Shown piece after piece: positions 643 to 60,856 of a stretch of DNA of 64,000 nucleotides (its first letter is position 1; each line of letters begins with the position of its first letter). The DNA lies in assembly GCF_029873635.1 (NCBI RefSeq), contig NC_080428.1, forward strand, positions 67,203,601 through 67,267,600. The letters run 5' to 3'. This DNA comes from Malania oleifera (taxonomy: Eukaryota > Streptophyta > Magnoliopsida > Santalales > Ximeniaceae). The position numbers were made by a program, and so were the translations under genes. The notes under the pieces are model-generated. The model saw only the letters and a list, made by a program, of their open reading frames with translations. It did no database searches and was not told the DNA's origin.

Positions 643-2160
643 TTTCAAAATCTATCTGTTTTACCTTGATTCTGTATTTCTGTATTTACCATGATCCTGT
701 ATAAACTGTATAGCCATGATGCTATAATAACTGTATATCTGAATATCTGTATATTCTATAATTCTGTAACTATAATTATGTATTCTTTATGTCATGGTTC
801 TATATTCTGTATAATCTGTATTTCTGTATATCATGGTTCTATATTCTGTATAATCTGTATTTTTGTATATCATAGTGCCACCCTTCTTTAAAAAAAAAGA
901 TTGGTTCTATATATATCTTTGTATAATCATGGTAAATAAAAACACTGTATAATCACTTTGTAAAATACTGTACAATCATGCTCTGAGATTTACTATGAAA
1001 CCACAATTCTTTAAAATACTGTATAAGCATGATTTTGTAAAATACTATATAATCATATAAGCTGTATTTCTGTATAGTCGTAGCTTTATATATAAAACTG
1101 CATAAGCTGTGTTTCATAATTTTGTAGGCTATATAATCAAGCTTCTGTAAAATTGTATAACATATTCTATAATATTCTAGTATTTCTCAAGCCACACAAT
1201 TCAATAAAACTCTATACATATGTTCCGTAAAACTGTATAAATTTTCATGCTCTAATCAAATACTATATCATACTGATAAAACATCTAATAAGGCGTGCAT
1301 AACATATATTCCCCTTACCTGGTTATTTAGTTCTAAATACTGCTCGTAATTTCACGTATACAGCATCGTTCACAATTTTCAATTTCCTTAAATAACACCC
1401 ATATAATTCCCAATCAAACAACTGAATTTATCGTAACAACTATCACATCCACATTTTCCCCAACTCCACATATTCAGCATTTCTAAACTATAATTTACCT
1501 GAGTTCCTGGAAAAATACCTACTGGGGTCCTCAACCCATATCCGTAGAGTCACAAAAACACCCTAATCCTGAAAACATAATACCCTAGTTTTACTCCACA
1601 AAATATCAGTATATTTCCACACGACACAAAATCTAAACTTAGACAAACTTGGTAATACTAAAAAAACCCAAATATTCAACTTACCCTGATTTTGGGATGG
1701 TGCGCAAATTGGCCTAACCAACAATTTACTCTAGTAGACTTGAAGAGAATCTTCACAGGAGTAGCGTGGTGGCTTCCGATCATCGAATCGGTGAAGAACA
1801 AAGTCAAAATCGTAAAGAGAAGGGAAGAGGGATGGGTTTTAAAAAGAGAAGGGGTTTCCTGCATGAATTTCTCGCTGAAAAACCCAAATTAAGCATATTT
1901 ATAAACCTGGATTCATCGACGAGTCCATGAAGGGAGTTCGTCGACGAACTCGTAACCCTCGTCGACAAACTTTAGGCTTTGCTAAACCCCTCTTGATAAG
2001 TTCTCGTCGACGAGACACGTGTCCACGTCGACGATCCCAAGAAGGATACTCATCGATGAGCGCCCTGTGTTCGTCGACGAGACCTTGTGAGTCCCTTTTG
2101 AAATTTTTTTTTTATTTTTCTTTTATTATTTAATTACTATAATTCTTTAGGTCTCTATAA
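643..2160 (-). mobile_element. gypsy-type LTR, partial (LTR 'A')
   Basis: Minus-oriented LTR of the family whose LTR starts TGTAGAGACC; the reverse complement of 2125-2160 closely matches the LTR start at 15873. U3 carries about seven GTCGAC-centred palindromes (1913-2085) immediately upstream (minus sense) of a TATA box at about 1896-1905. The interior at 660-1300 is a degenerate run of 'ctgtat' phrases also seen in the LTR at 30.0-31.7 kb. The left end is missing where the copia LTR abuts. No polypurine tract flanks its right end, so it may be a solo LTR. A fossil fragment. Confidence 0.6.
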
Positions 2161-2267
2161 CATGGTTCGACAATACCTACATCCACGGGAGCAATCAACA
2201 ATGATTTCTTACTATCTTGTGTCAAAGAAATGAACAACCTTACAAGTACATCATATACAACGTATAT
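2161..2267 (-). mobile_element. copia LTR R-U5 fragment, inverted
   Basis: Read on the minus strand this stretch resembles the R-U5 of the neighbouring copia LTR (compare 2690-2775): it has CCCGTGGATGTAGG followed by CGAACCATG. It appears to be a short piece of a related copia LTR in opposite orientation, squeezed between the gypsy LTR and the copia element. Confidence 0.4.
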
Positions 2268-2874
2268 TTTTATTTATGGCTCTTATACTTGGATAGCACA
2301 GCATAGCAGGATAGACTCATCGACGAAGCCCTGTGTTCGTCGACGAAGAGATGGCAGAGGCTCGTCGACGAAGACTCTGAAGTTTGTCGACGAGTAATTA
2401 CCGAGAGCAGGTGTTTTTAGATTTCTGGGTTCTTTGACGAAGCCATGTGTTAGTCGACGAAGTGTCTTCTTGGTCTCGTCGATGAAGCCCTGTGTTAGTC
2501 GATGAAGTGTCTTCTTGGTCTCGTCGACGAAGCCCTGTGTTTGTCAACGAGAGACGCTTGGGCTGCGAGTAGTTTTCAGAATTTTAAATTTTTGAATGTT
2601 GGGTGGTTGGGCAAACGGGAGGAAACCTCTGAGAAACTTTTATATATGTTATTTTGGGCATATATGAGAGTGTGGTTGATCATTTTGAGAAGTGTATTGT
2701 GTACATCTTGATTTCTTAGTGAAAAATCTGTGTGCCATTGCTTCCATGGATGGAGGCGTTGCCGAACCATGTTAAATCTTTGTGTTGTTGATTCTGGTTG
2801 TGTAGTTTTATTCACTTGTTGTTTTATTTCCGCTGTGCATTTGTCATTATCCAATCCGATCAACTAGTACAACA
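2268..2874 (+). repeat. 5' LTR of the copia element
   Basis: 607 bp. It contains about ten copies of a GTCGAC-centred motif, TCGTCGACGAAG and variants (2311-2555), several within a longer phrase ending in 'ccctgtgtt'. A TATA-like box lies at about 2636-2648. The R-U5 block with CGAACCATG is at about 2765, and the end is ACAACA before the primer-binding site. Confidence 0.85.
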
Positions 2875-2877
2875 AAT

Positions 2878-2891: not shown

Positions 2892-2898
2892 GGTTGTT

Positions 2899-5800
2899 AT
2901 GGCATCGGGATCGTCTTCTGCAAGGTTTGACATCGTTAAGTTTGATGGAATCGAAAACTTTGGTTTATGGCAAAGGAGAGTGAAGGACATTCTTGTGCAA
3001 CAAGGGATGGCTAAGGCTCTTCTTGATACTCAACCGGAAGGAATGGATGAGACAACATGGGTAGATTTGAAAGCAAAGGCAACGTCTATAATACACTTAT
3101 GTTTGGCTGACGAAGTTCTCTATCGAGTGATGGAGGAGGATTCTCCAGCGGCTATCTGACGAAAGTTAGAAAGTCGGTACATGTCTAAATCCCTTAATAA
3201 CAAACTTTTTCTTAAGCAGCGTTTATATTGACTTAAGATGGTAGAAGGATCTAGTCTAGATCAACACATCAATGCGTTTAATCAAATCATAAGTGATCTT
3301 ATGAGAGTTGATGTGAAATTTGATGAGGATGATAAGGCTTTGATATTGTTAAATTCTTTGCCCTCAACTCATACTTATGAAAATCTTGTGACCACTCTTC
3401 CGTGGGGAAAAGAAACTCTTGATTTAGAAGAGATAACAAGTGCCTTGTTGAATTTTCATCAAATATTAAAGATTTGTGATGAAGGAGAAGGACTTGTGAT
3501 AAAAGGTAGTAATGAGCGAGGCAAAGGAAAGTTTAAGAATGGGTTTAATCAGAAATCCGAAATCAATCCAGGAAGAAAAAGGAAATCCGGTGTTATAAAT
3601 GTGGTAAAAAGGGGCATGTGAAACTAGAGTGTCCAGATTGGAAGAAGGGAAATGCTAATAAGCATGAAGGGATTTCAAAATCTATGAATATTGTTTAAGA
3701 AGAGGATTCAGTAGATGGTGATGTTCTATTAGTTTCATCAGAGTCGGATATTCTAATGAACTCTTGGATACTTGACTCAACATGTTCTTATCACATGACT
3801 CCAAACAAGGAGTGGTTCAACACTTATAGGTTAGTAAATTCTAGATCAGTTCTTATGGGTAATGATGCTTCTTGTAAGATCGTTGGCATAGGAAGTGTAA
3901 AAATAAAAATGTTTGATGGTGCTGTAAGAACATTGTGTAATGTAAGACATATACCTGAGTTGAGAAAGAGTCTGATATCTCTTGGTACTTTGGATTGTAA
4001 TGACTTCAATTACAAGTCTAAAGGTGGAATCTTAACGGTTTTTCAGGGTAATATGATTATAATGAAAGGGCAGAAACTGGATGGAAATATCTACACGTTG
4101 TAGGGAACTACTGTTGTAGGTGAAGTTGCAGCGGTGGATGCTGAATCAGATGAGACTGTTTTATGGCATATGCGTCTTGGTCATATAGGAGAACATGGCA
4201 TGAAAGAACCACACAAAAGAAATTTTTTGAAAGGTTTGAAATCATGTCAGTTGGAATTTTGTAGATTTTGTGTTCTTGGAAAATGGAATAGAGCAAAATC
4301 TAGTTCGACTACTCATAAAATGAAAGGAATTCTTTACTATGTACATTCAGATGTTTGGGGTCCAGTAAGAATTGCATCAAAGGGTGGACATGTGTATTAC
4401 ATGAGTTTCATTGATGATTACTCACGAAAGGTTTGGGTTTACTTCATGCGTCACAAATCTAGTACGTTTGCCAAGTTTAAGATTTGAAAGGCTGAAGTGG
4501 AAAACCTGACAGGGAGGAGAATCAAATACTTAAGGTCGGATAACGGGACAGAGTACGCTAATTCTCGGTTTATGGAATTTTGTGTGGAGCAGGGCATCAA
4601 GAGACATTTTACAGTTCGTCGGACACCTCAGCAAAATGGTGTGGCAGAATGGATGAACCAGACTCTTGCTGATAGGGCTCGGTGTCTTAGATTGAATGCA
4701 GGGCTACCAAAGAATTTTTGGGCCGAGGCAGTTAGTATGGCTTGTTTTTTGGTAAACCGATCACCAAGGGCATCACTAGCAGGTAAAGTGGCGGAAGAGG
4801 TTTGGACAGGAAATGCAGTAGACTACTCCAGATTGAAGGTATTCGAGTGTGCAACCTATGTCCACGTGTCTAGTGAGGAGAGGTCTAAGCTTGATCTGAA
4901 GTCTCGTTATTGCATCTTCTTGGGGTATCCAGAGGGTGTAAAGGGATATAAGCTGTGGGACCCAGTGGCAAACAAAGTGGTGACCAGTAGAGATGTAGTT
5001 TTTGATGAGAAGGCTATGGTGAAGCGTACTCAAGAGTTTGATGATTAGAAACAGGAGCTAGAAAACTGGGGCAGTGATGAACATGTTGTGCAGGTGGAGT
5101 TGGAAGCTCAGGGTAACGGAAATGATCATGGTCACGTGGTTGCAGGGAGCTTTAGCTCGAAAAACCAGCAAGTCGACAATATTCCTGTACGGAGATCTGG
5201 ACGCACTATCAGGCCTCCATCAAGATATGGTTTTGATGAATTAGTATCTTATGTTTTCCTTGTTGCAACGATCCAACTACCTTTCAAGAGGTAGTGCACG
5301 GCCAAGAGAAAGATAGGTGGATGGGAGCGATGATTGAGGAGATAGAATCTTTGCATAAGAACCAAACTTGGGACTTGGTGGAACTTCCAGATGGAAAGAG
5401 ACTGATAGGATGCAAATGGGTGTGTAGGAAGAAGGAAACAATTTCAGAAAAGGAAGGAGAAAAATTCAAGGCACTGTTGGTGGCAAAAGGATACTCACAA
5501 AACAAGGGAATAGATTATGGTGAGATCTTTTCTCCAGTGGTACAACATACTTCTATTAGAATTGTGTTGGGGTTCGTAGCTCATTACAATTTTCATTTGG
5601 AACAAATAGATGTGATGATGATGTTTCTTCACGGTGACTTGGAGGAACAAATCTATATGGTACAAGCGGAGGGTTTTGTTGAATCAGGAAAAGAAAATTT
5701 TGTTTGCAAATTGAAGAAGTCTCTTTATGGGCTGAAACAGTCTCCAAGGCAATGGTGTAAACGGTTTGATTCCTACATGATCAATATTGGCTACAAATGG

Positions 5801-6838
5801 TGTGAGTATGATTGCTACGTTTATGTGAATAAACCTGAGGATGGTTCTCTTATTTTCTTGTTATTGTACGTCGATGACATGTTGATAGCTGCAAAGGATT
5901 TAACTGAGGTGAATCAATTAAAGGATCTGTTGCATAAGGAATTTGACATGAAGGATCTTGGTTCAGTCAAGAAAATACTTGGGATGGAGATTCGCCGTAA
6001 CAAGACTGCAGGGAGATTATGGTTATCTCAGGGTGGTTATGTGCAGAAGGTGTTGGAAAGGTTTAGCATGACTGATGCAAGACCAGTGAGTACACCTTTA
6101 GCGAATCATTTTAAGTTGTCTACTGCAGATTGCCCAAGTTCGAATGAGGAAATTTGGGACATGTCAAAGGTCCCCTATGCTAATGCTATAGGGAGTTTAA
6201 TGTATGTCATGGTATGTACATGGCTAGATTTGGCGCATGCGGTAAGCGTCGTGAACAAGTTTCTCTCTAATCCAGGAAGACAACATTGAGAAGTCGTTAA
6301 ATGGATATTTAGATACTTGCAAGGTACATCGGGATATGGCATCATGTTCAGCAAGAAATAGAGTTGTCCCATAGTTATGGGGTTTGTTGATGCAGATTAT
6401 GCTGGAGATATGGATGAAAGAAGGTCTACAACGGGATATGTGTTTACTCTTGTAGGAGGACCAGTATGTTGGAGATCCATGGTACAGTCTCCGGTTGCAT
6501 TATCCACGACTGAGGCGGAATACATGGCAGTTATCGAAATTGCAAAGGAAGTCTTATGGTTTACTGGTTTAGTTAGAGAGCTGGGAGTACAACAAAATGG
6601 TGTGGTGCTGCATTGTGATAGTTAGAGTGCTATTTACTTGTCGAAGAATCAGGAATATAATGCTAGAACCAAGCATATTGATGCGAGATTTCACAAGGTT
6701 CGGGAATTGATTTCTTTGGGTGAACTTGTGTTAGAGAAAGTTCATACATTTGATAATGCCGCAGATATTCTGACCAAATCAGTTACTTCGGAGAAGTTCA
6801 GCTATTGCTTGGACTTGCTTCATGTCTCCAAGTGATTG
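2899..6838 (+). pseudogene. copia gag-pol remains
   Basis: Fossil polyprotein in the usual copia order. Gag begins with MASGSSSARFDIVKFDG and is followed by a CX2CX4HX4C knuckle region near 3586-3630. The protease region is near 3756-3800. Integrase has its zinc-binding part near 4150-4290 and its catalytic core near 4340-4720. The copia RT spans about 5290-6020 and includes YVDDMLIA near 5866. RNase H lies at about 6377-6838 with [15 protein letters not shown] and TKHIDARFH. It is not expected to be functional. Confidence 0.9.
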
Positions 6839-6954: not shown

Positions 6955-7354
6955 TGTTATGTATGACTCTTATACTTGGATAGCATAGCACAGCAGCACA
7001 GACTCGTCGACGAAGCCCTGTGTTCGTCGACGAGAGATGCCTAGGCTGTGAGTAGTTTTTCAAAATTTTGAATTATTGAATGTCGCGTGGTTGGGCAAAT
7101 GGGGGGAAACCTCCGAGAAACTTTTATATGTGTTATTATGGACATATATGAGAGTGTGGTTGATCATTTTGAGAAGTGTATTGTGTACATCTTGATTTCT
7201 TAGTGAAAAATATGTGTGTCATTGCTTCCGTGGATGCAGGCTTTGTCGAACCACATCAAATCTTTGTGTTGTTGATTCTGGTTGCGTAGTTTTATTCACT
7301 TGTTGTTTTATTTCCGCTATGCATTTTCATTATCCGATCCGATCTAGTACAACA
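6955..7354 (+). repeat. 3' LTR of the copia element
   Basis: 400 bp, starting TGTTATGTATGACTC after a purine-rich tract. It matches the 5' LTR at both ends but holds only two copies of the TCGTCGACGA motif (6994-7035) against about ten in the 5' LTR, which accounts for the length difference. It is followed by AATTGGTAT, the same bases that begin the primer-site region after the 5' LTR. Confidence 0.85.
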
Positions 7355-7360: not shown

Positions 7361-7660
7361 TATATATAAAGGTTTCTTGGAGGCTTTCCCTCCAAACCCC
7401 TACCAACCTAATGTCCCAATTCAAATTTGAAAATCTGCACTGAGTTCTCGAGTCAAATCGTCGACGGTTTGCAGACATACCATCGACGGTTTAATATCAA
7501 GAATAAAACCTCTCTGAATTTTGGACTAAACTGTCGACGGATCAGGGCAAATTGTCGACGGTTTCCTTAGTAAACATCAGCATACTATTTTCCCCATATT
7601 TTTTCTTTGTGCATGCTTTCCATTCAGTATATGAGCCACATATCACAACAGAGGTCCTCC
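7361..7660 (-). mobile_element. LTR-like fragment with CCGTCGACGG motifs
   Basis: Four copies of the ATCGTCGACGGTTT type (7449-7562) lie next to a TATATATAAAGG box (7361-7372; minus-strand sense CCTTTATATATA). The arrangement matches the U3 of the minus-oriented gypsy LTR ending at 31717. Neither end of the LTR can be defined, and no coding sequence is present. Confidence 0.4.
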
Positions 7661-8390: not shown

Positions 8391-8879
8391 TTATTTGCAG
8401 AAGCAATCCTCCATAAACTTCAAGAACTCATTGGTGTCGATCATCCCATCTCCATTCCGATCAAAAGCACTGATCATCCTCCTGCATTCCTCGACTCCCA
8501 ATCCTTCCTTCACGCCCAAACAACTGGCAACTCTCTGCAACTCACTAGCATCTATGAACCCATCTCTGTTCTCATCAAACACGTCAAAAGCTTCCTTCAC
8601 CTCCTCCAAAGTTGGCTCCTCCTCCTCAAACAACTCTGCAGCCTCAACAGCACCAAAGCTCTCCTGAAGCTCCCCACCATCTGGGTCACAACACATTCCA
8701 AGCCTCTCCATCACCACCTCCAACTCTCCCCTGCATAGACCCACTTTGTTTATGCACAAATCTCTGTTTATGGGCTTCCAAATCTTCAACTCGGCGAAGA
8801 TATATCTCACCAGGGACTGCAGAAATAGCAGAAATAATGAGAACCCAGATGCAATCCCGGCCTTTCGCTTTTCCTCCAT
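8391..8879 (-). CDS. CML: calmodulin-like calcium sensor (CML45/46/47-like), 162 aa
   Basis: A calcium-binding sensor protein that would relay Ca2+ signals by binding targets when its EF-hands load calcium. The ATG chosen is at 8877-8879 (MEEKRKAG); the frame stays open further upstream but without an earlier ATG, and the stop is at 8391-8393. The single exon is usual for CMLs. Two canonical EF-hand loops are visible: DENRDGFIDASE (residues 102-113) and DRNGDGMIDTNE (140-151), both with Asp at loop positions 1, 5 and 9 and Glu at 12. Ahead of them is an acidic stretch (ELFEEEEPTLEEVKEAF, about 82-98). The N-terminus has a hydrophobic run (ASGFSLFLLFLQSLVRYIF, about 10-28), which could be a membrane anchor or signal-like segment. 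Two EF-hands plus a hydrophobic N-terminus fit the CML45/46/47 group; exact orthology is inferred. No frame damage is seen, and it stands alone between repeats. Confidence 0.88.
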   Translation of the reverse strand: MEEKRKAGIASGFSLFLLFLQSLVRYIFAELKIWKPINRDLCINKVGLCRGELEVVMERLGMCCDPDGGELQESFGAVEAAELFEEEEPTLEEVKEAFDVFDENRDGFIDASELQRVASCLGVKEGLGVEECRRMISAFDRNGDGMIDTNEFLKFMEDCFCK

Positions 8880-9116
8880 TTCAGAATTCAACAATGGGGA
8901 GAGACAGAGAGAGAGAGATGCAAAGCCCCACTTCGTTTCTGCTCAATGCTCTGTTTTTGCATGCTTCACTTAGATGTCAAGAATGGTTGTAGATATAGTA
9001 GGCAATTGGCTTATGCTGGAAGGCGAGTGGGGAAGCAATTGTGACTTTCCTTGAGGGGAGTTGGAAGGTTAAGAAAAGCTTCTTGCAATTTTCCTAGAAA
9101 ATGTGTCATGTCAATC
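8880..9116 (-). promoter_or_regulatory. 5' flank of the CML gene
   Basis: A pyrimidine-rich (minus sense) leader with a (CT)n tract at about 8904-8920 lies directly upstream of the ATG, typical of a plant 5' UTR. No clear TATA box was recognised. Repeat-derived DNA begins at about 9117, so the unique promoter is short. Confidence 0.35.
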
Positions 9117-14940: not shown

Positions 14941-15872
14941 ATGTGTTATCAAGTTAGTATCGGCATGATACCTTACGAGGCACTTTGTGGTAGGAGGTGT
15001 CGTTCTCCTTTATACTGTGATGAGTTGGGTGAGAGATGAGTTTTGGGGTCAGAAATAGTACAGCAGATGTACGATAAAGTCTGACTTATTAGAGAGAGAA
15101 TCAGTGTAGCTCAGAGTCGGCAAAAAAGCTATGCAGATAATCGTTGCCGGGTATTGAAATTTGAAGTGGGTGACCACGTATTTTTGAAAATAGCATCACT
15201 AAAGGGAGTCATGAGATTTGGGAGGAAGGATAAGTTGAGCCCTAGGTTTATTGGCCCCTTTGAGATACTTGAGAAGGCTGGGTTAGTTGCCTATCGGCTA
15301 ACTTTACCACGTACTTTGTTCAAAACACATGACGCATTTCATGTTTTTATGTTAAGGAAATATGTCATAGATCCTTCCCATGCCATCAATTATGCAGAAT
15401 TGAAATTCAGTGATGCTTTAGCTTATGAGGAAACTCTAGTACAAGTCTTAGACTGGAAGGAACATGAATTGCGTAGTAAGAAAATTCAGTTAGTAAAAGT
15501 CTTGTGAAGAAATCATGCCATGGAAGAAGCTTCATGGGAGCTTGAGGAAAAAATCAGACAGAATTACTCACACCTGTTTAGTGGGGGACTGTAGTGATCT
15601 GTATATTCAAATAATGACAGTTTTATTTTGTTTAGTATAGAGTGACAAATGAATAATTGTAATTTAGAATATAAGATAGGTATAGTTTTGGTTTTGGGAG
15701 AATTTTCTTTCATGAGTATATTTGTAATCTTTCAAAGCTGTTTATGTAACCACGGTATTTTTTTCGTCATAAGTGAGGGTTAGTAATTAAATAAGTAGCT
15801 ATTTTTCTTTTAGGATGGTGTACAATATAGATAGTAAATTTTGAGGACAAAATTTTTATAAGGAGGGAAAAA
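14941..15872 (+). pseudogene. chromovirus (Tekay/Del-like gypsy) integrase C-terminus and chromodomain remains
   Basis: The segment reads YEALCGRRCRSPLYCDELGE (near 14975-15030), then the integrase tail KFEVGDHVFLKI...GRKDKLSPRFIGPFEILEKAG...LRKYVIDPSHAI. A chromodomain-like end follows (about 15420-15590). This is the 3' end of pol of a Tekay/Del-type chromovirus. A polypurine tract (AAGGAGGGAAAAA, about 15860-15872) leads directly into the LTR at 15873. Everything upstream of the integrase end is absent. A broken fossil. Confidence 0.8.
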
Positions 15873-17228
15873 TGTAGAGACCCTAAGAATTATAGTAAAT
15901 AAATAATAAAAGAAATGAGAGAAAAAAGAATTTTTATAAGAGGGTGCAACAGGGCCTCATCGACGAGTGTAGAAGTGCTCGTTGACGAGCAGACTCTTGG
16001 GCTCGTCGACGGGGACGTGCGTCTCGTCAACGAGAACTTATCGAGAGGCCTGTTTGAGGGTCTAAAACTCGTTGCCGAGGAGACAATGTTCATCGACGAG
16101 ATTGCTCCATTGACTCATCGACAAGGCGACGTTTCTCATCAACGAGTCCACGTGGACCGTACTCTATATTTATAGCCAAAACGGATTTCAGCGAAAGAAT
16201 TTCTCTCTCTCTTTCTCTCATTTTCTCTCTCCAAAAAATGGGTTTCTCTCCCTTCTCTCTAGGTTTCCGGCTTCGTCTCTCCCCGGTTCGATGGTCGGAT
16301 GCTACCACGGTGATCCTGGGGAGATTCTCTACAACATAACCGGAGCGAAATGTTGATTTGAGAAGTTTGGGAATCATCCCAAAATCAGGGTAAGTAGAAT
16401 GTTTGGATATTGTTAGTATTACCAAGTTCATTTGAGCCCAAATTTTTTATTATAAGAGAATATATTGGAGTTTTGTAAAGTAAAATCAGGGTATTATATT
16501 TTCAGGAATATGATGTTTTGGGTCCTTACAAAAATGGGTTCAGGATCCCAGTGGATATCTTTTCAGAAGCCCAGGTAAATAATGAATAGTTTATAATTCC
16601 GAAGATGGAAAAATGAGGAATATTCTGGGTATTTAATTGATTGGCAGGAGATATATACATAATATATTTAGGGTTATGGAGTTATAAATGCTAGAGGTGT
16701 AATTTAAAACGTTAGTAGATGAGCTTAATTACAAGGTAAGAGAAATATGCTATGCGAGATAAATTAGAATTTTATCAGTAAATATAATATAAGTTTATGG
16801 GTGTTTTTCAGAATAAATATGATATAGTTTTACAAATTATATTTGATGAGTTATCAATTATTATGTGGCATGAGTGATATGAGTACAATATTAATTTTAT
16901 ATAATTTTTATAGAATTATGATATATAGTCATTTACAGAGTAGATTATACAGTATTTATTTCAAAGATACGATTATCCAATATTTTATAGAATTATGTAT
17001 TTACACAATTTAACATGGTTTAATAGAAAACATAATATACAGTTTTACAGTAAGCATGTTATATACAAATCCCAGGGCTATAACAGTTAGTTATACAGTT
17101 TTATAGATCAGTTATTACAGTTTATGTTCAAAACAGACAGTACTGTTTATACAGAATAATTATTATAGTGTTATGGCTATTACAACATAAATAGAATAAT
17201 GGTAAACAGTAAAATACATGTATATACC

Positions 17229-20365: not shown

Positions 20366-20519
20366 TTTTGAGAGTGAAGCCAATAATTAATTAGAAATTA
20401 TCCCAATTTAAATTTATTGAGTCTTTTAATTACTCCACTTTATTTTGTAAATATAATTCTCCCATATTTGCATAAAATAGTTTGTTAAAATTATAACACG
20501 TTTGACTTAGTAAAGACAT

Positions 20520-21375
20520 ATGTTTCCATAGTCGTAGATATCTTTAAGTTAATATTCGTAAATATCCTTGAATAATATTCCCATATATGTAGATATCCCT
20601 GATTAATGAGAGTAGTTAGTTCACATATAGGTAGGCATCCTTGATTAATATAAATACTTTGTTTTCATATGGGTAGATATCCTTAATTAATGTGAATATT
20701 TGATTACCATATAGGTAGATATTCTTGATTAATGTGAATTAATGTTCCCATATACTTAGACATCCTTAATTAATATAAATACTCAGTTTCCATATAAGTA
20801 GATATCCTTAATTAAAGTGAATATTTGGTTACCATATAGGTAGATATCCTTGATTAATGTGAATTAATGTTCCCATATACTTACACATCCTTTATTAATA
20901 TAAATACTTAGTTTCCATATCGGTAGATATCCTTAATTAATATGAATATTTGGTTACCATATAGGTAGGTATCTTTAATTAATGTGAATTAATGTTCCCA
21001 TATATGTAGACATCCTTAATTAATGTGCATATTTAGTTTCCATATAGGTAGATATCCTTGATTAATGTGAATTAATGTTCTCATATATGTAAACGTCCTT
21101 AATTAATATGAATATTTAGTTTCCATATAGGTAGATACCATTTATTAATGTGAATATTCAGTTATCATATATGTAGATATCCTTCCTTATTGTGAATATT
21201 TAGTTCTCATGTACGTAGATATCCTTGATTAATGTATTTAGCCCCCATATATGTGAATATATTTGACTTAATGTGAATTCTTGTTACTATATTTGTAAAT
21301 ATTCCGAATTTAATGTAAACATTTAGTTTCTATATTTGATAATATCCTTGATTTAGTGAAAATATTTGTTTCCAT
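20520..21375 (+). repeat. tandem array 1, unit about 42 bp
   Basis: About 20 imperfect copies of a unit built around CATATAGGTAGATATCCTTG followed by ATTAATGTGAATATTTAGTT. Units vary in sequence and slightly in length. It lies inside the coding-free interior of the LTR element. Confidence 0.8.
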
Positions 21376-22715: not shown

Positions 22716-23278
22716 ATTCATGCATTGCCATGCATTTCATGCATTACCCTATATTTCATGCATTGTCATGCATTACCCTACAGTTCACGCATTACCATAC
22801 ATTTCACGAATTACCATACATTTCATGCATCATGCATTACCCTACATTTCATGCATTGTCATGCATTTCATGCGTTACCTTACATTTCACGTATTACCAT
22901 ACATTTCACGCATTATCATACATTTCATGCATTACTCTACATTTTATGCATTACCCTACATTTTATGCATTACCCTACATTTCATGCATTACCTTACATT
23001 TCACGCATTGTCATGCATTTCTTACATTACCCTACATTTCATGCATTGTCATGCATTTCATGCGTTACCCTACATTTCACGCATTACCATACATTCCACG
23101 CATTACCCTACATTTCATGCATTGTCATGCATTTCATGCGTTACCCTACATTTCACGCATTACCATACATTCCACGCATTACCATACATTCCACACATTA
23201 CCATACATTCCACACATTACCATACATTTCATACATTACCATACATTTCATGTATCATCATGCATTTTATGCATTGCA
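22716..23278 (+). repeat. tandem array 2, unit 19 bp
   Basis: About 30 copies of CATTTCATGCATTACCCTA with single-base variants. Because 19 is not a multiple of 3 and the unit has no stop in any frame, three overlapping open frames of about 190-200 codons (His/Tyr/Phe-rich) arise automatically. They are not genes. Confidence 0.9.
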
Positions 23279-24425: not shown

Positions 24426-24737
24426 TCTATTGACCCTTTAAAAAATATCGATTGGATTACCTTGTTCATTCAAGAAGTCATATTCCAGAGAATCGCATTG
24501 AACATTCCTATATTGCCTTGTTATCCATGATTGGTAGAAGTGAACAGTACCTGATCGAAAAGCTTTAAGCAGTTGTGTGGCCTAACTAAAATAAGTGTCT
24601 TTTATCTTTTGCAGGTTTGTTGCTATAAAAAACATAGGAGAGTTCCTATCGTTACATTGAAGCAACAAAACTTACAAAGAGGGGTAACTGTAGACATCCT
24701 ATTTTTGTCCAAACCAAATATAACAAATGAGTTACCA

Positions 24738-30822: not shown

Positions 30823-31717
30823 TTTTCCATAAAATTGATAAAAATAATTATACTTTACTTTTAAACTCGTGCCACATAGATTGAGTAATACTTTAAATAT
30901 AATATTCTGCAGAAACTATTGTAACTATTTCTAGGGTTTTTCTCAACCCAATATTCCAACTTTCTCAAAATATATATATCATTTCAAGTTTCCATTTCAT
31001 ATGTTTGTATACCTAGGCAAACTCATACATTATTTCTGAAATCACATGTTATAATTTATTCAGTTGACTTTATAAAAGCACCAGACATAATCTATTTTCC
31101 TTACGTGCTACTAAGAAAAAGCCCGCAAGGATTCTAAAATAGCATCTGCGACAATTGAAGTTCAAAACCCTGTAAACATATATCCTAACTTAATCAGCTC
31201 AATCCCAGAATTATAACTATTTAAACATCCTTAGGCTCACACACTCTAATTAACCAATTAAATTCTACATAGTTAACACATTCATAATTCTTACTTCAAC
31301 TTTGGAGTGGTATTTAGAAAACCCAAAACACAAAACTGCCTTGATTAAACACAGAGAAACTATGCCAGAATCCCGAAATGACGTTTTCCAACTGATTTGG
31401 GCTTGATTCGGGAGAGAAATCGAAGAGAGAAGGAGGGAGGGTCGCAGCCCTAAAGAGAGAAAATGAGGTTCTAATTTTTCTTCCAAAAAAAATAACTTAG
31501 ATGCCTTATATAGCCCTCTGACCCGCAGCAAAACCATCGACGGTTTGATCTTTAACCAAACCTATTTTCACCATTTTACCCTTACCTAACTGTGGCAACT
31601 CAAAATCGTTAACGGTTTTCTGGCCTCCCATCAAACCGTCGACGATTTGGTCTACACTAAATCATCTTCCATATTTTCTTTATTTTTTTTATTATTTAAA
31701 TTTTCTAGGTCTCTACA
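30003..31717 (-). mobile_element. gypsy-type LTR, partial (LTR 'D')
   Basis: Minus-oriented relative of the chromovirus LTR family: its right end GGTCTCTACA is the reverse complement of TGTAGAGACC. Three CCGTCGACGG-type palindromes (31533-31655) lie upstream (minus sense) of the TATA box at about 31505-31513. Internal landmarks shared with the LTR at 41592-44115 include TTGTGCGGCCCAAAGG (about 30254). An AT tract lies at 30783-30820. Its left end is cut by the chromovirus LTR that ends at 30002. No polypurine tract adjoins its right end. Confidence 0.65.
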
Positions 31718-32585: not shown

Positions 32586-32938
32586 TAATTTGTAAAATGT
32601 CAAAGTCCTTAAACTTTTTGGGCAAAATGGTTATGAAGAAATATATATGAACAAACTCCTTTGCCTTTTTTTTTTTTTTCTAACAAACATATTTGCTTTC
32701 ATGTAAAAGCAATAGACAAAAAAAAAAAGAAAAAGAAAGTGGAGAGGAAGGAAGCCAGAGAGCAAGACAAAAGCTTCATGCAGCCAAATGCATTAGGTCC
32801 CATTACGACGTGCTCTGCGGAAAATGTGGTTTCCCTTTGCTGATGGTCACTCTGATATATCTAATGTTTCCTCTTGGCTGATAAATCAGAGACACACACT
32901 TCAATCTGATTTTGAAATCTCAATCAAATACAAAACAA
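32586..32938. other. unassigned intergenic DNA
   Basis: Poly-T and poly-A runs (32669-32682, 32719-32730) flank a less AT-rich patch at 32740-32890. No ORF beyond about 62 codons and no recognised domain. Confidence 0.3.
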
Positions 32939-33624
32939 TGAAAAGTTGAAATACAAAAAACAATGGTATTTTTATTCAATAGAACCGTGACGTTATGTAC
33001 TTTAGAGATGATACAAGTATGTGTATTTATACATAATTACATGACATAAGAAACAATAAATGAAAAATTATAAATCTCATGATTTGGGATAAAATTTGAA
33101 CTGTTGTCATATATCCTCTTTTTTGAATTAATAGGCTTTGATTTGTTGACATATATGATTCACCGACAATTGACTTTGAATCATTGACGTTCGTTAGTTT
33201 TTATTGTGATAACTTGTCTCGGATCTTCGTCATTTAAATCTAAAGCGGACAAATGTGACCGTCGACGGTTTGGTGTAACTGTCGATGGTTTTGCTTCAGA
33301 ATTGTTTTCTGAGTGTGTCAAGTTGTGATACATTGTTAATATCCTCCTGCAAACTTTGTTGGGATTGGAGGCAAAGTTTGTTACAAAAATAATAATAATG
33401 AAGAACAAGCTTTGAGGGTGTGGATATGTTCGGCTGTTGTTGTGTGATCTTCTTTCCGAAAGGTAGTTGATCGGTTGACGACTTTTCCATCTATAATTGA
33501 GAATTGATGTTGACGAATTTGATCCATCCTCGAAGAAAACGGTCAGACTTCCCCCATGCTAAGATGTAGCATTGATATGTATGGATAATAGAATGGTAAA
33601 ATAAATAAATAAATAAATAAATAA

Positions 33625-41591: not shown

Positions 41592-44115
41592 TGTGACGCC
41601 CCAATTTTCATACAATTTTTTTCTTCAATAAATAATAAATATTAATCAAACACCGGCCACGTCAAAAAATATGATACCATTTAAACATAACCCGATCCAA
41701 AGAGGGTGTCGGGTAAAAAATCATACAAACAGCCCTAACAGCGGAAGTCAATATTTATAAACCATTCAAAAAACAAATAACCAGAGTTCTATACATTCAT
41801 ACACATCCCAAAAACCCATAACATACTTTAAGAGATTACAAAAACTCATCCCCAACACAAAACACTTATCACGTATATCAAGGTACTAGCTCCCTTCTAT
41901 CTCGAAGCTCTATCACCTGGCCTGTTACGGTTCCCTAAAATATTTAGATATTTGAGTGAGACACATTTCAGTAAGACGAAATAAATTATTTAGAGTGTGT
42001 GGCAGTATGAGATTCGTTATATCATAATATACTCATTTCAGTGATAATACTATCTGAAAAAAATATACTAATTATACTTATAATCATATAGATATAAAAC
42101 ACAAGCTTTTATAAGCTTTCATTCAATTTTCAAACTCATTCACATGCAACTCATATTTATCAATGAAAGTTCCCTAGGATAGGGGAGATTACACGCTCAT
42201 ACATGTAGCTCCCCTTTGTTCTGATATCGTTTGTAACCTTACTCGATTAATTCGGGTAAGGTTGCAACTGATACTTATCAGGGCACTCATCTTACTCAGT
42301 AAGCCATCAGACGGAGAGTTTTACTTTGCCTTAAATATTTATGTCATTAAACTCACGCTTTTTCATTTATCATTTCCATTTCATATCTAACTTATGAGTG
42401 TCCTCAATAACCAATCCATATGTCGTCTATAACTCATGGCTGCCCTAAGGATATTCTCCATGTCATACTTCCCCCCATGGTCAAGATTGTGCGGCCTGAA
42501 GGCTGGATCTAAATCGCGGTTGGCTTACCGAGTTAGATCAAGATAAAAACTCTACTTGTCCGTTTGTAGTACGATTGACCTACCGCAGCCTAGTCTGGAC
42601 CCAGGGGTAGTCAACATCTCTTCGAAGGCCCAATCGACTATCACGCCACACTCTCCACGAGATCGTGTGGTTCCACTAACACCTCACTAGCAATGGTACT
42701 GTGCTCTATATCAACAACCGCCCATCAGGGTTCTCATTTCCACATTTCATCATTCACATTTTGTATTCACATTTCAGTATTCACATTGTGTATTCTCATT
42801 GCAATATTCACATTTTCACATTCACATTTCAGTATTCACATTGCAGTATTCTCATTGCAATATTTACATTTTCACATTCACATTTCAGTATTCACATTGT
42901 AATATTCTCATTACAATATTCACATTTTCACATTCACATTTCAGTATTCACATTGTAGTATTCTTATTGCAATATTCACATTTTCAGTATTCATATCTCA
43001 TCTCATAATTGTATATATCACATTTCAATATTCCCATCATTTTCTACTTCTTTCTCATTTTTCAATACACATTCCATTCTCATAATAGTATATATCTCAT
43101 TTCGCGAATTTCATCATTTCTCAATAAACATATCATCATTTCATATTTCCCCAATTATCATAGAAAATATTTCTATATTCATATTTTATGTTTCATCACT
43201 TCACAGTAAAATACACGTTGGTATAATATCATTTATCATTTTATATATTTCAAATCTCAAAACATCACAATTCAGTTTAACTCATATGCCACACAAATTT
43301 TATCCGATTAACGTATCATAATAATTTCAAGCAAAATATCATATCCTCATTTTCACATATTAATTCAACCAGCAGTTCTCAAAATAACTGTAATAATTTA
43401 TTCCCCTTACTCGACTTATTGAGAAACCCATAAAAACCCAAATCCTACACCTACAGCGTCCGAAACTCAAAATCCTAAAATTCACATTTTTCCCAAATTA
43501 ATCAACTCATCTCCCAAAATATTACTCATTTAGCACTTTCTAGGCCTTATATATTCCAAATAAACATTTAGACCCTAAAATACCCTACTTACCCTGATTT
43601 TGGAGTGGTGCCCAAGGACTCCAAATCAATAATCCGTTCTAACTAAGTTGTAGAAAATCTCTCCACGAACCCCGTGGTAGCTTCTGATCATCAAAATAGG
43701 TTTAGACGGAGTGAAAATTGAAGAGAGAGGGAGTGTTGGAACCTTTGGGTAAAGAGAGAAAACGAGAGGAGAGAAAAGATTTTGCTAGAAAATGACAGAA
43801 AAGCTATTTATAGGCCTGGCTTTGTCGATGAGTTAAAGTGATTCGTCGACGAGCCAATGAAGAAAGTTCGTCGACGAGGAGGTTGGTTCGTCGACGAACC
43901 TGAAATTCTCCTAATTTCCCTGACTCTCGATATCTTCTCGTCGACTAGACGTGTATACTTTGTCGACGAGACCTAGAGGTACATTCGTCGATGAAGACCA
44001 TTGGTTCATCGACGAATCCCTGCTGATCCCTTTTTTTTTTTTTTTTTCCTTTTTCCTTCTCTTTCATTTCTTTTCTTTTATTACTTTTATTAATTAAATT
44101 TTATGGGTCTCTACA
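41592..44115 (-). mobile_element. gypsy-type LTR, full length (LTR 'C')
   Basis: 2524 bp, from TGTGACGCCCC to GGGTCTCTACA on the plus strand. Immediately right is TTCTCCCATCCTTATAAAAT (the polypurine tract in reverse), so this is the 3' LTR of a minus-strand element whose interior is lost except for about 45 bp. U3 holds about eight GTCGAC palindromes (43823-44025) directly upstream (minus sense) of the TATA box TATTTATAGG (about 43804-43814). It is inserted into a closely related LTR. Confidence 0.8.
42745..42985. repeat. minisatellite inside LTR C
   Basis: A unit of about 57 bp made of ATTCACATTTCAGTATTCAC and ATTCTCATTGCAATATTCAC phrases, about four copies. It is open in several frames, giving spurious Ser/His/Ile/Phe-rich ORFs. 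Confidence 0.75.
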
Positions 44116-45785: not shown

Positions 45786-47278
45786 ATGAATGAAATGAGT
45801 GATGGTGAGACTAGTGTCCACGCCTTAGCACCAAGCCAAGGATTCCACAATCCACTATCAACGCTCCTTCCCCAGCGGGGCAAGCCTTACAACTTGGGTA
45901 CACAACCCTACACTTGGGAACAAATCCCTACATGCTCAAAAAGAGCCTTTACCAAGTGGTCCACCAAGAACCCTCACAATGGTTCACAAAGAACCTTACA
46001 CAAAGTTGATGATTACAATGAGAATGCTCCTTGAATGAGCAAATATTAAATACAAGCAAATCTCATACTTCTCTCTCAAGAATTGTATTAAACAAGATTG
46101 GAGGGCAAGAGAGATGAGCACTTGTGAATATGAACTAAGATGAAATGTGCTAGGTTTTGGAATCAAGGATATTTTTCACTATAAGCTTGTATAAATCATC
46201 AAAACCATTTCTAAACAAGTCTAATAGCTTGTATTTATAGCCAAAATACCCAACTAGCCGTTATTGGACCGTTTGGAGAAATTTCCAAATAAAACTAGTC
46301 GTTTTTCCTGTTAGCGTCATTCTGCTTGTTGGGCTCGTCGACTAGTGTCATGCACTCGTCGATAGTGTTAACTAGTCACTGGTCAATAAATCCCCTATTT
46401 TCATCAATGATTTCCCGGAATTAGAAAGATTCATCAAAATGAAAGTTGTGAGATTTTTTCTTAGTTTTCCAAGGACACCAAAATCGTCATTTTTGAACTT
46501 CTCTAGCAAAGGTTATGCCTCAAATACCGAATAGTGTTCAGGACTCAAGGCTGCACTACGTCAGTCAACGATTGCTCTGTTTTACCTTGACAAAAAGCCT
46601 TTTAATGACTTAAAACATTCTTGGACAAAATTATATGAAATATATTAAGTCTAATAAAGTTTAAAACTTGTCCAAGTGAGTTTTCACTTAAATATAAGAT
46701 ATCTTGATTTATGAAAACATCTTTGAAAGATCAAATAATATCTTATATGCTTAGAATGTCCTTTATAAAAAAGTATTTGACTTCTTTTAAGCTTTAGGAC
46801 ATTAATCATGCTTTGAAAAAACCGGGACCAAGTATAAAATTGTTTTTAAAATTAGGATGTTAAAAAATCGTCTCTTTGAAAACATATTTTGAGTTTCGGA
46901 TTGTTTTTGACAAACTCTTTGAATTTAAGTTTGAAAACCATGAATGTGAGTTTGTGACTTTAATGCAATCCTATAAACTCAAGTGTCCTAGTATGCATAT
47001 GCAATGCTCAACTCTTACTCAGAAATCATGTAAGAAACACACCCGCAAGAGTTACAACATAGACTACCTTAAACGCTTCGCAAATACATATAAAACTACA
47101 TTAAGCTTCCTTTGGTCATGCATGGGTCTTTCTGAGTACGTTTCCATTTGATCTTTCCTTATTGATGTCTACTCAGTCCGATCTTTGCCTTTGATCCAGT
47201 TCTTCATATATAAGTACCTGAACTAAACATGATCTGTAAAGATAGGAAAACAATAAGAACAATATATAGGTTAATATC
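45786..47278 (-). mobile_element. copia-type LTR fragment, continued at 49476-49530
   Basis: On the minus strand it has a U3-like part, two GTCGAC-type motifs (46333-46385), a TATA box (about 46232-46240) and an R-U5-like end (CTTGGTGCTAAGGCGTGGAC, about 45840-45815). The sequence to its right is split by the solo LTR at 47279. Beyond that, TGTTAGCCTTGGTGGC (minus) preceded by AAAAAGGGAGAG at about 49530 could be the LTR start with its polypurine tract. Whether it belongs to the same element as 57273-60856 is unresolved. Confidence 0.5.
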
Positions 47279-49475
47279 TGTTGACCTTATTGGTCACGCT
47301 CGGTTTTGATTATGACAAATACTCATTGTATCTAATGAGCGTTTGAGTTTTTGTGCAGGAATCAAGAATGATAAGATCAAGATATGCACAAAAGCAAGAA
47401 AGGCTTGAAGACAATTTCATAACTCTTAATTGTAATAATTTTCAGTAAAATTGTCTGTAATAGTAATTAGGGTTCTTCGGTTTGTAATAAGCACACACAT
47501 CACAAACATGATTAAATTTGCAAGCTCAAACCGAACCATAGAAAGACCTTAGGGTGAACCTTCGGTCGACCGACACCGGACTTTTTCGGTGATCTCAAAT
47601 TGGACCCCAAGTGACCTTAGGACACTCACCTTTGCACTTGTATGTAATAGGCACTTGAATAGGGTTTATATGTTGCAAGAACGGACCGAAATGCACACTT
47701 GGTGCACTTTCGGTCGACTGGCCAACTCAATTCAATCTGGCCTGGTCGACCAAAACTGGTCCGGGTCAACTATTTGACCCAGGCCCGGTCGACCTAGCCC
47801 TTATAGGTCATTTGACCTCGGTCAACCGAACCACCTGGGAGTCAACAGTTTGACCTCCCAGTCGACCGACCAGATTTGTACTCCAACTACCTGGTCGACC
47901 GAGGGGTCTTGGGAGGATTCCCAACGGTCTGGTCGACCGAACCATACAGTTCAAAAAGGCCCCGATCGACCGAACCTCGGTATTTTTGAAAATCGTCCTT
48001 TCCCGGTCGACCGAGCTACTTGAGTCCCGGTCGACCGAAACACTTTTGGTCGACCGGACCTCTCGGGTTGTTCCCATTTTTACCGTGATTAATATTTTTC
48101 TAAACAGGGTCAAAATGCCTTAAACATCATTAAACTTTTCTAAAAATACCCTATAGGTCCCCAACGGTCATATTTTCTCCCTTGCCTATATATAAAAGTT
48201 CATTTGAGAAAATTAGACAGGGGATTAGCCACTTTGATTAGGGAAAATTCTTTGAAAAATAAAAACCCTATAATACTCATATTCAATCCCCATTCACTCA
48301 TGCTTACATTCTTCGATCTCCTAAATCCTCTGTAAGTCGATTGAGTGTTTTTATTTAGTAGGTTTGCTCTCCCATTCATATTTGATTGTTTTATTTTCAT
48401 TGAGAGCTAAACCCAAGTATTCTTAGGAGACTTTGTTAATAAGTCTATCCTAAGAAGACATTGATAGATCTTCTAAGATTTGCACCTTCATTGCAACATC
48501 TTAAGAAGATTGTATTTGTTTTTGGTTGCAAAAACATTTTCAAATATCTACTATGTTTTTATCTTGAAAATATTTGATGAGATATTTGTTAGTGTGATAA
48601 AATCTTTGTTGCAATATTTTTTTCACTCATATATTATTTGCTGAATACAAAGATTACACGTCTTTTGCAAACCAAGCATATACATCGTTTAATACATACA
48701 TGCTTGAGATATCTTAATGATTGAAATACATAAGACTTGACATCTTTGTGTGAAACTATTTGTTGAATATCTTGTGATACAAAGATTGTTTGTTTGCACT
48801 CTCACGCACTCATTACAATGATAGTAAATCTATTTGAGAGTTGACATCTTAGACCACATTGAGCTTACATATTGAATCATATTGTGGTGTATATTATTGC
48901 GCGCATCCGGGTACATATCTGCTTTACACGAAAGCACAATCACTGTACCGTTTGATTGTAATACGCTTTGGTTGTATTTCCAGGCACGGGCCTGAAGAGG
49001 GAGACTAGCCCTGGAATAGTCCCGGATTGGCTTATACCCGGTTAGGAAAGCTAGGTGCGTCGTCCTGTTAAGGCTTGTAGGTTGAGGTCAGCCCCGCTAA
49101 TTGACCTGGTTAAGGTTGAGGTCAGCCCTGTGATAATTTGACCTGGTTGTAAACGGTGTTGCTCCGCCCTTAAGTGAGCTGTTAGTGGAATCCTCCTGCT
49201 TGCGAGTTAGAGGCGGGGACGTAGGCACAGTTGGCCGAACCCCGATAACATATCTTGTGCTCATTTACATTTCCGTACCTTATATTTACCGCACATGTAT
49301 ATTATGGGTGAATGATGCGTATAACTTAATTTCCATATTATATTTATCTAGACACTTGGAAATTGCATAGATAGGCCCTAGGTTGTGCATATACTGTCGC
49401 TGAATATATTAACCTAGGAGAAAAAGTTTAAAATTCCAATTCACCCCCCCTCTTGGGAATACACCAATCATAACA
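47279..49475 (+). mobile_element. solo copia-type LTR with ATATC target duplication
   Basis: 2197 bp, starting TGTTGACC and ending CATAACA, flanked by perfect 5-bp duplications ATATC (47274-47278; 49476-49480). No interior is present, so it is a solo LTR left by recombination. U3 contains twelve CGGTCGACCG-type palindromes (47570-48058), followed by a TATA box CTATATATAAAAG (about 48185-48197). R-U5 carries repeated TTGACCTGGTTA phrases and GGCGGGGACGTAGGC...CCGAACCCCGATAACA (about 49210-49250), then AATTCACCCCCCCTCTTGGG. Confidence 0.88.
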
Positions 49476-57267: not shown

Positions 57268-57272
57268 CTTTG

Positions 57273-58564: not shown

Positions 58565-59703
58565 ATGTAAATGGTATAATCTTAAGAGGGGGGTGAATTG
58601 GATATTTAAAAAACTTCTTCTTAGGTCAGGTGTGTTTAATTTCAAACAACAGTCATATTACACAACCTAGGGTCTTTCTATGTAAACTCAAATCCCCAAA
58701 TAATTAAAGCAAGTATGTAAAGCAATGAATCACAATAAATAATCAAACATGCATGTGCGGAAATTAAATAGTGTAGGGAAAGAGAGAGAGACACAATATT
58801 TGTTATCGAGGTTTAGCCAATATTGCCTACGTCCTCGCCTCTAGTCATAGCTTAAGGATTTTACTAAGTGCTCACTTAACCAGGCGGAGCGATGCCGTTT
58901 ACAATACTCCTTACGAGGCGCAGTCTCCTCAGCTTAATTACAGGGCTGAGCCACAACCAGTTCTCCTTACGAGGTGAAGTCACCTCAGCTCAATTACGGG
59001 ACTGAGTCATAACCAATTCTCTTTAAAGGGCGGAGTCACCTTAACTCACCTAACCAGGCTAGAGTCAAACCAGTACACCTTACAAGACGGTGTATTCCTC
59101 TTCAGGCTATGCTTGGAATACAAAGATAATAATATTTTTGTACAAATAAATGCTTCTGAAAATAAGTGGAGATGTACACAATGAAACTCTAAAATGCACT
59201 CTCAGATGATATGAAATAAGAGCTCAGTAGAGTATGGGTATTTTCTCAATCTAGTTTATGCAATCTTTGAATAAGACATATATAATAAACACTCCAAAGA
59301 TCTAACCCCAACAAATATTTCTCTCAAAAATATTTTCCAATAAAAGTGCAAGAGAACTAAGGGTTTTTGCTTTCAAATAATTTTTTGCACAAATGATTAT
59401 ATATGATCTTTGATTAAAAATGGAGTATGGAATAAATATTTCAAAGATCTTAAACCCTTAAGGCATTTTCCCAATAATGATAAAACAAAATAGTGCAAGG
59501 GGAGTAAGGATTTTTGCTCAAAATAATTTTGCAACAAAGAACAGTGAGCTTTTGAAATCTTGCAATAGATGTGCAAAGATTCACAAGTAATAGAAAGTTT
59601 TCTCCCAAAGATATTTATCAAGACAAAATATGTGGGAGAAACTATAATTTTACTCTCAAGAATGATTTTGAAAAGAAAAGAGTGAATGGGAGTAAATGAT
59701 TTT

Positions 59704-59747
<44 letters not shown>

Positions 59748-60856
59748 CCCCAAATGAATGATTCTTTCAATAACCTTCAAGTGCAATCAATTTGAAAATG
59801 AAAGAGATGAAAGAAAAATTAATGATCTCTCAAAAATATTTTTAAAAAGATAAGTGTAGGAGAGTATAAATGAATAAAGCTCTAAAATATTTTCAGAGAA
59901 TTTTCAATTTTAATCATTGGTTAGGAAATGAGTAATAAGGGGCTATTTATAGAGTTCTTAAAAAATATGACTGTTTGAGACTTATTAGGCATTAATTAAT
60001 TTATTTTATTAAAAAAAAATGACTATTTAGCATTGAAATTTTACCAAACCCGAGTGGTTTGGTCGATTGGCGCCAACATCAGTTGGCTGGCCTCTGTATA
60101 AAATTCATTTTTCAAAAATGGTTGGTTGACTGTGGAGACCGCCGGTCAGCTGGTCAATGGGCAATTTTCAAATCGTGAGAATTAACCTGCTGGGCCAAAC
60201 TACCGGTTGGCTGAGCTTGAGAATCGGTCGGTTGAGGGCCTTTTATGCTTAATTTAGTCGGTTGGCCAAGCTTTGAAAGTAGGCCAAATACAAAGGGCAA
60301 GTCGGCTTAACTCACGATTTGGTCGGCCTGACCTAAGGTTGGTCGGCTGGGCACTTCAAGTGTAAAAATGGTCAGTCGGCCGAGCCTATGTAAACAAGCC
60401 AAATATTAAGGGGTCGGTCAACTGAGCATATTTAAACGTGAAAGGGTTAGTCGACTGGGCCTAATTAAAATGTAAGTTTGACCCTATTTTGACCCTAAAA
60501 TATTTATATGATTTTAGAATTTTTAGAAAAAGGTTTTTCTTTACAGTGTTGGGTGTCCTAAGGTCAGTCTATGGTTATTCTAAGTTTAGCATTATATCAT
60601 GCAGAGATATGCATTATTACAGACCAAATATTAAAGCTAAATGAAATTACAAATAAATAACATGTCTTCTTTCTTTTTTGCTCTTTTGTCTTCAATGGAA
60701 TACGTCGGAATGAATAGCTTTTAACTCGTTCAGGCTTCTATTCTTCTTTTCCCTTATGTGTGTACTGAATAAAAGACCTATTAACATACTGATTGCACAC
60801 ATAAGATACTTGTATTTTGTCAGTATCAACATAGAGATCAAACTCAAAAGTCAACA
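58565..60856 (-). mobile_element. 5' LTR of a minus-strand copia element
   Basis: 2292 bp: minus-strand start TGTTGACTTTTGAG at 60856, end CCATTTACA at 58565, next to a copia primer site. U3 carries about eleven degenerate GGTCGACC-type motifs (60055-60470), most changed to forms like GGTTGGCTG. A TATA box (CTATAAATAG, about 59943-59952) follows in the minus sense. R-U5 has repeated GAGGCGGAGTCACCT phrases (58900-59060) and CGAGGTTTAGCC (58807). An (AT)n tract lies at 59705-59746. Confidence 0.75.

Follow-up and report, generated by a model that had tools for sequence, protein, structure and literature searches.

Why would retrotransposons with different coding regions carry the same short palindrome, many times over, ahead of the TATA box in their long terminal repeats (LTRs)? 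The question is raised by a 64,000-nucleotide stretch of the Malania oleifera genome (hereafter the window; C12:67203601-67267600, in an assembly of 1.494 Gb and 510 contigs), for which a sequence-only reading had listed ten LTR stretches, each said to hold 2-12 copies of a 10-bp palindrome centred on GTCGAC and to lie just upstream of a TATA box, in many unrelated LTRs. We find that these palindromes are strongly enriched in LTRs, that in Ty3/gypsy-type LTRs and in one copia lineage they follow an eight-site order with nearly constant spacing, and that this arrangement probably marks a promoter-proximal enhancer.

A near-exact site was defined as one with at most one mismatch to any of three forms of the palindrome, TCGTCGACGA, CGGTCGACCG or CCGTCGACGG, and the LTR stretches were taken as the original ten, with bounds slightly adjusted, plus the 3' LTR of a copia element (6990-7060, two sites), making 11 stretches and 2,177 bp in total. 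All but one of the 46 near-exact sites of the window fell inside these stretches, against a mean of 0.5 and a maximum of 2 in 20 Markov resamples of the window, which bears out the claim that the palindromes are concentrated in LTRs. GTCGAC itself was observed 38 times in the window, 35 of them inside the 11 stretches, where a Markov model expects ~3. Across a 264-kb sample consisting of the window and four 50-kb blocks (b1-b4), it had the highest ratio of observed to expected counts among the 64 six-base palindromes (81 vs 13.8); 38 of the 81 come from the window itself, and the four other blocks together hold 43 vs 10.6 expected. The 46-kb stretch and a terminal-repeat retrotransposon in miniature (TRIM) have one near-exact site each, and the 60-kb LTR has none and lies outside the palindrome module. 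Instead, the 60-kb LTR contains repeated GGTCGG/CGGTTGG words, which may be another Sirevirus motif or one that has decayed.

The enrichment extends to the whole genome. TCGTCGACGA is present in 132,361 copies, compared with 433 for a control palindrome, TCGACGTCGA, that has the same bases and the same three CpGs; CGGTCGACCG is present in 37,462 copies and its backward reading in 256, and ACCGTCGACGGT in 2,868 copies and its backward reading in 43. These matched-palindrome and backward controls rule out chance or CpG background as the source, and we conclude that the enrichment is real and dense; counting copies that are intact or one step decayed, one genome holds hundreds of thousands of sites. 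The sequence-only reading had staked its claim on enrichment upstream of TATA boxes throughout the genome, and this held, in that 12,255 places have TCGTCGACGA 10-39 bp before TATAAATA and 92 have it after (one TATA may be counted for more than one site). In 50 matches from the search for a site before TATAAATA, the last site ended 9-12 or 19-22 bp ahead of the TATA box, within the range limited by the search. An ACGTG word (basic leucine zipper- or G-box-like) stood between site and TATA box in 17 of these 50, and another class, 9 of the 50, had GTCAAAGG, a possible W-box. Many LTRs do without the motif, as had been claimed: only 6 of the 37 direct-repeat pairs in the 264-kb sample, some of which are not LTRs, have GTCGAC in either copy.

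The elements that carry the sites are fewer in kind than had been supposed. LTR A and the LTRs at 16 kb and 44 kb, listed as unrelated, have 66-70% mutual identity (69-73% in shorter stretches with the sites masked) and on sequence likeness are one Ty3/gypsy family, in which the 16-kb LTR is placed because an SH3_Tf2-1 integrase end lies upstream of it and LTR A and the 44-kb LTR are assigned by LTR homology only. The 16-kb and 44-kb LTRs both begin TGTAGAGACC, the 31-kb LTR matches the 44-kb LTR over at least the first 45 bp (86.7%), and a related element in block b1 encodes RVT_1, RT_RNaseH, Integrase_H2C2 and SH3_Tf2-1 (gypsy reverse transcriptase, RNase H and integrase). Compared with the published att sequence of the Del U3 (the unique 3' region of the LTR), TGTAACACCC, the start TGTAGAGACC agrees at bases 3, 9 and 10 and differs at base 6; no chromodomain turned up in the gypsy fragments scanned with Pfam, a scan that included no search aimed at chromodomains. 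The element at 2.3-7.4 kb is copia (RVT_2) and, from its reverse transcriptase, which has 28% amino acid identity over 254 residues to the copia enzyme encoded between the two Sirevirus-type LTRs of b2, appears to be a lineage far from the Sireviruses. The 47-48 kb LTR is Sirevirus-type: it begins like the LTR of b2 that is preceded by four AGGGGGAG polypurine tracts (31704, 32082, 32165 and 32224 in b2, the last followed by AA/TGTTGACC and not AT/TG), and its 12 sites with at most two mismatches, 3 of them exact CGGTCGACCG, are followed by TATATATAAA at ~48187. Beside this copy in the window there is no AGGGGGAG. The third form of the palindrome, CCGTCGACGG, is found in the TRIM, the 31-kb LTR and fragment D. 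A promoter-proximal module is common to gypsy, to Sirevirus-type copia and to another copia lineage, as had been proposed, and the LTRs concerned are not all one homologous U3 family. Neither of the two outcomes that the sequence-only reading had named as fatal to its claim was thus seen.

Within the gypsy and non-Sirevirus copia LTRs, the sites are not merely clustered. Two exact TCGTCGACGA stand 11-40 bp apart at 20,629 places genome-wide, and among the matches listed for the first 3 Mb of C1 (83 plus-strand pairs in 53 arrays), 58 pairs are 19-21 bp apart, 25 are 24-26 bp apart and none has any other distance. When decayed sites are allowed, the full array consists of eight sites at intervals of ~20.1, 24.3, 20.8, 47.9, 20.2, 24.4 and 20.2 bp (12 vectors) and extends 174-184 bp from the start of the first site to that of the last. 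The short intervals have standard deviations of 0.4-1.0 bp, and the central interval, which ranges over 45-51 bp, has one of 1.9. Read as a mirror or as a repeat, the intervals gave summed differences of 20 and 26, respectively, which do not decide between the two symmetries; this comparison left out L043, which the template fit includes. The complete eight-site series occurs in 7 of 13 gypsy-type arrays, in 5 of 20 further loci and in 6 of 12 copies of the copia family. Among the 29 arrays that have five sites or more, 204 of the 219 sites lie within 4 bp of one template, whereas random placement gave a mean of 127.6 and a maximum of 139 in 200 trials (some of these arrays had also supplied the template). 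Additionally, a CGAGAG-like word starts eight bases into the central gap, after site 4; of the 8 gypsy-type arrays compared, 3 have the word exactly and 5 with one mismatch, both copia copies have it exactly, and it was found by a simple pattern 7 nt past a site in 11 of the 20 further loci and 5 nt past a site in one. The copia family was followed in 12 copies of the 40 matches listed, two of them the window's own, and in all 12 the array precedes the TATA box, with no site in the 280 bp between the TATA box and the LTR end. The phrase "just upstream" describes gypsy LTRs A and 44 kb well, with gaps of 9 bp, and fits neither the copia family (82-90 bp in 11 of the 12 copies, 134 in one) nor the Sirevirus-type LTR (~130 bp).

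The spacing of the Sirevirus-type arrays is different, at ~33/40 bp and ending 32, 22-24, 19-21 in b2 and locus L001 and 41, 24, 19 in the window. After the last site of such arrays (48047-48075 in the window, and L001) there is a CTCTCGG word (reverse complement CCGAGAG), which looks like an inverted version of the CGAGAG word in the central gap of gypsy and copia arrays. The spacing of fragment D (22, 51, 21) resembles a piece of the eight-site order with another flank.

Sites and spacing persist where spacers diverge. Across four gypsy-family U3s, aligned 10-mer identity is 8.7/10 at the sites and 5.4/10 elsewhere, a comparison in which the aligner may favour sites. The idea that many variants reflect C-to-T decay at CpG was supported, in that CpG transitions account for 104 of the 118 site mismatches in 23 gypsy-type arrays of assigned orientation (165 sites in all; for 12 arrays the orientation comes from TATA only, without reference to pol) and for 73 of the 78 in the copia family (87 sites). 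Since nearly all mismatches are of this kind, most divergence looks like decay after insertion, as would be seen if the sites had been exact at that time. The single C-to-T decay forms number 63,985, 106,086 and 55,701 genome-wide; the last two, TCATCGACGA and TTGTCGACGA, concern the two cytosines of one outer CpG, which decay unequally.

Taken together, these sequence features make it probable that the palindrome array serves as a promoter-proximal enhancer of LTR retrotransposons. Each palindrome would be bound by a host DNA-binding protein as a homodimer, binding would be cooperative in pairs of sites about two helical turns apart, and the bound array would activate transcription from the LTR; after insertion the sites would become methylated and decay from C to T, and intact sites in active elements would be maintained by selection. 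We favor a host protein because the palindromes are of a dimer type, form pairs about two turns apart and have a fixed relation to the TATA box, and because the same core is found in approximately three pol lineages, with an identical Sirevirus form in grape. Under the enhancer reading, a single host factor should have sites throughout the genome. Either strand of GTCGAC agrees with RYCGAC, and we presume from this that the AP2/DREB class offers a lead, and only a lead, for the binder. A DREB1D motif has been called as associated with plant LTRs in a published analysis (PMC11656987).

A bolder form of the enhancer reading, to which we give somewhat less than an even chance, is that one fixed-grammar enhancer, with eight palindromes at ~20-24-21-48-20-24-20 bp and a CGAGAG-like word, has passed between Ty3/gypsy and Ty1/copia and has made a large share of the genome's retrotransposon promoters dependent on one host protein complex that responds both to the sequence of the sites and to the distances between them. 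Mobile-element enhancers are usually regarded as tolerant of loosely ordered sites, whereas here spacing is held to one or two bp while spacers randomise, across retrotransposon superfamilies. If this is true, enhancer grammar, and trade as against convergence of control regions among unrelated mobile elements, become directly testable.

Several observations weigh against an enhancer of this kind or reduce the force of the counts. The array strands fold strongly as RNA, and some Sirevirus-type LTRs do not have the motif (the b3 pair at 37400/44654 has 0 and 1 core, and the b4 pair at 30160/36781 none). One to three off-template sites each are present in L046, L048, L054, L057 and L058, and the arrays b3_12.6 and b1_47.6 have two sites only, 41 and 52 bp apart. 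Related LTR families inflate site counts, such that the independent unit is the lineage and not the site, and approximately three pol lineages were resolved among the carriers; furthermore, most of the arrays termed gypsy-type, including all of L041-L060, were classed by LTR likeness or TATA side and not by their own pol, and the 20 further loci were hand-chosen from a listing for having clustered sites. The central CpG is only mildly protected, with 64.0k decayed genome-wide vs a mean of 80.9k per outer CpG, to which an initial hint of strong protection in the 264-kb sample (5 core decays vs 37 over the two outer CpGs) shrank.

How the copia lineage came by the array is a separate matter, and exchange or convergence is the most likely route. 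Shared spacing and a shared central word favor one ancestral module over independent gain, and we judge the chances to be about even that the copia array came from a gypsy U3 by recombination or template switching, in which case the module is homologous and not convergent. The order of spacings and the orientation to the TATA box are the same in copia and gypsy; the first 14 nt of the copia central gap agree with those of the eight gypsy-type arrays at 9.9/14 on average, which none of 5000 shuffles equalled (the likeness had been noticed before it was tested); and a 9-base spacer word is common to copia and LTR A, a length reached in 16 of 500 shuffles. On the other hand, the short copia and gypsy spacers barely match in register (0.36 vs 0.33 out of register), and the copia 3' LTR, once its sites are masked, has no match among gypsy LTRs at E 1e-8 over 80 bp. 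Nor is there support for an inverted transfer of the array from gypsy to copia, the in-register inverted match being 0.30 vs 0.32. The only gypsy/Sirevirus hybrid U3 found, L001 (G000 C1, ~92-95 kb), also fails to help exchange, because its junction is present once in the genome; two further matches, with 3 mismatches each, do not include the gypsy side, and L001 was rejected as a spreading chimera. In its structure, L001 has a gypsy-type LTR start and a TCGTCGACGA array, is cut inside its TATA box, and passes directly into a U3 of Sirevirus type, whose sites are CGGTCGACCG-like.

Turning from origin to function, the folding of the array strands would be expected if the palindromes acted mainly as RNA or DNA hairpins, with adjacent sites pairing in U3 read-through transcripts, feeding small interfering RNAs and drawing methylation. 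The strands fold below 60 shuffles each (z -7.2, -5.0 and -2.7; -8.5 for a Sirevirus-type array), the CpG decay of the sites is as expected of methylated DNA, and palindromes in maize Sirevirus LTRs have been reported as small-RNA hotspots (PMC5311732). We nevertheless regard this account as unlikely, as hairpins need neither a fixed gap to the TATA box nor a core common to several lineages. Pairing of sense RNA would favor C>U, which retains G-U wobble, and yet sense-strand C>T is not above G>A (44 vs 60 in the 23 oriented arrays and 28 vs 45 in the copia family); the opposite lean is allowed by antisense pairing, so that these counts are not decisive. Complementarity between the flanks of sites gives no clear partner scheme, and selection for sense-RNA hairpins is unsupported by either the substitution counts or the flanks.

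The signature of anti-silencing proteins like VANC, from the VANDAL DNA transposons, is a short motif present in many copies within non-coding DNA. The CpG-rich and many-times-repeated sites described here match that signature, and the array might be a landing pad for such a protein, encoded by the element or by the host, that strips methylation. This we hold to be improbable, in that a core common to elements with unrelated coding regions and to a TRIM favors a host factor. Least probable is that a single high-copy gypsy family accounts for the enrichment by mere copy number: most multi-site arrays of the TCGTCGACGA type in the 264-kb sample are indeed mutually alignable gypsy-type LTRs, but the copia family and the Sirevirus-type LTRs carry the motif too, the former refuting it as a full account, and within gypsy the sites outlast the spacers.

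Part of what is seen in the window was known, contrary to the view that the arrays have no described counterpart. Bousios et al. (2010) gave CGGTCGACCG as the repeated motif (RM) in the LTR of a Vitis Sirevirus, upstream of the TATA box, with at least 8 RM boxes per element, multiple copies of the polypurine tract AGGGGGAG and an AT/TG junction at the 3' LTR (PMC2829016). The 47-48 kb array has the identical CGGTCGACCG with its CGG-CCG core, in many copies upstream of the TATA box, and is the published Sirevirus motif and not new. In contrast, the TCGTCGACGA arrays are in Ty3/gypsy and non-Sirevirus copia, have TC/GA flanks around GTCGAC and no CGG-CCG core, and follow the eight-site spacing. 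Palindromes in the LTR cis-regulatory regions of maize Sireviruses have been linked to small RNAs (Bousios et al., 2016, as cited in PMC5311732), and the present arrays likewise are palindromes in LTR regulatory regions. For gypsy Del elements, CpG islands were described in the 5' portion of the LTR and reported absent from the eudicot Del examined (Cruz et al., 2014; PMC4029996); they resemble the present gypsy arrays in being a CpG-rich LTR stretch, and neither GTCGAC nor "palindrom" has a match in the main text of that article. Heat-responsive elements, which are nGAAn clusters for HSFA2, in the COPIA LTRs of Brassicaceae (Pietzenuk et al., 2016; PMC5059998) are comparable as host-factor sites gained repeatedly in the LTRs of different retrotransposon families, and differ in that the passages of that article describe no grammar shared by gypsy and copia. 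Among the literature searched, in which subscription papers did not figure and from which absence from print does not follow, there was no account of GTCGAC palindromes in gypsy, of sharing across superfamilies or of fixed eight-site spacing, and the exact word TCGTCGACGA gave no title about LTRs among the matches listed. In the literature, palindromic boxes before the TATA box of Sireviruses thus go back to 2010 and CpG islands of Del LTRs to 2014, and the eight-site TCGTCGACGA grammar in gypsy-type LTRs and non-Sirevirus copia appears new.

Table 1. Palindrome-bearing LTRs of the window and associated coding features, with spacing given in bp between successive sites.
Feature	Position	Strand	Details
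LTR A	1913..2080	-	gypsy by homology; 7 sites, spacing 21,25,21,45,21,25 in promoter order
LTR A TATA	~1898-1905		gap to array 9 bp
copia 5' LTR array	2317..2550	+	10 sites with at most 2 mismatches; spacing 20,25,22,47,20,25,20,25,20; TATA ~2639-2646
copia reverse transcriptase (RVT_2) of 2.3-7.4 kb element	5240..6289	+	
copia 3' LTR array	7004..7033	+	down to 2 sites
LTR fragment D	7458..7561		four sites with at most 2 mismatches to CCGTCGACGG; spacing 22,51,21
Ty3/gypsy integrase end, SH3_Tf2-1	15085..15504	+	Pfam E 2.5e-23; upstream of 16-kb LTR
16-kb gypsy LTR array	15957..16145	+	LTR start 15873, TGTAGAGACC; 8 decayed sites, spacing 22,24,21,45,21,25,21
31-kb LTR sites	31534..31645	-	LTR start 31717 (TGTAGAGACC); two CCGTCGACGG-type sites; TATA ~31507
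TRIM site	33259..33268	-	one CCGTCGACGG; repeats 32937-33341 / 33721-34129
44-kb gypsy LTR array	43822..44015	-	LTR start 44115; 8 sites, spacing 21,25,22,50,20,25,21
44-kb LTR TATA	~43805-43812		gap 9 bp; LTR gypsy by homology
single TCGTCGACTA site	46335..46344		
Sirevirus-type LTR array	47563..48056	+	LTR start ~47280, TGTTGACC; 12 CGGTCGACCG-type sites with at most 2 mismatches, own spacing
Sirevirus-type LTR TATA	~48187-48195		~130 bp past array
60-kb LTR of the sequence-only reading	60055..60470		0 near-exact sites; one GTCGAC core with other flanks

The other repeat copy of the TRIM has no palindrome site. Elsewhere in the window, tandem-repeat blocks (20511-21375, 22717-23276 and 23533-24427) lie between parts of an apparent nested LTR element, the second of them being open in three frames, and likely host genes amid the repeats include those for a Dof zinc-finger protein (35998-37407, minus strand) and an EF-hand protein (8391-8942, minus strand).

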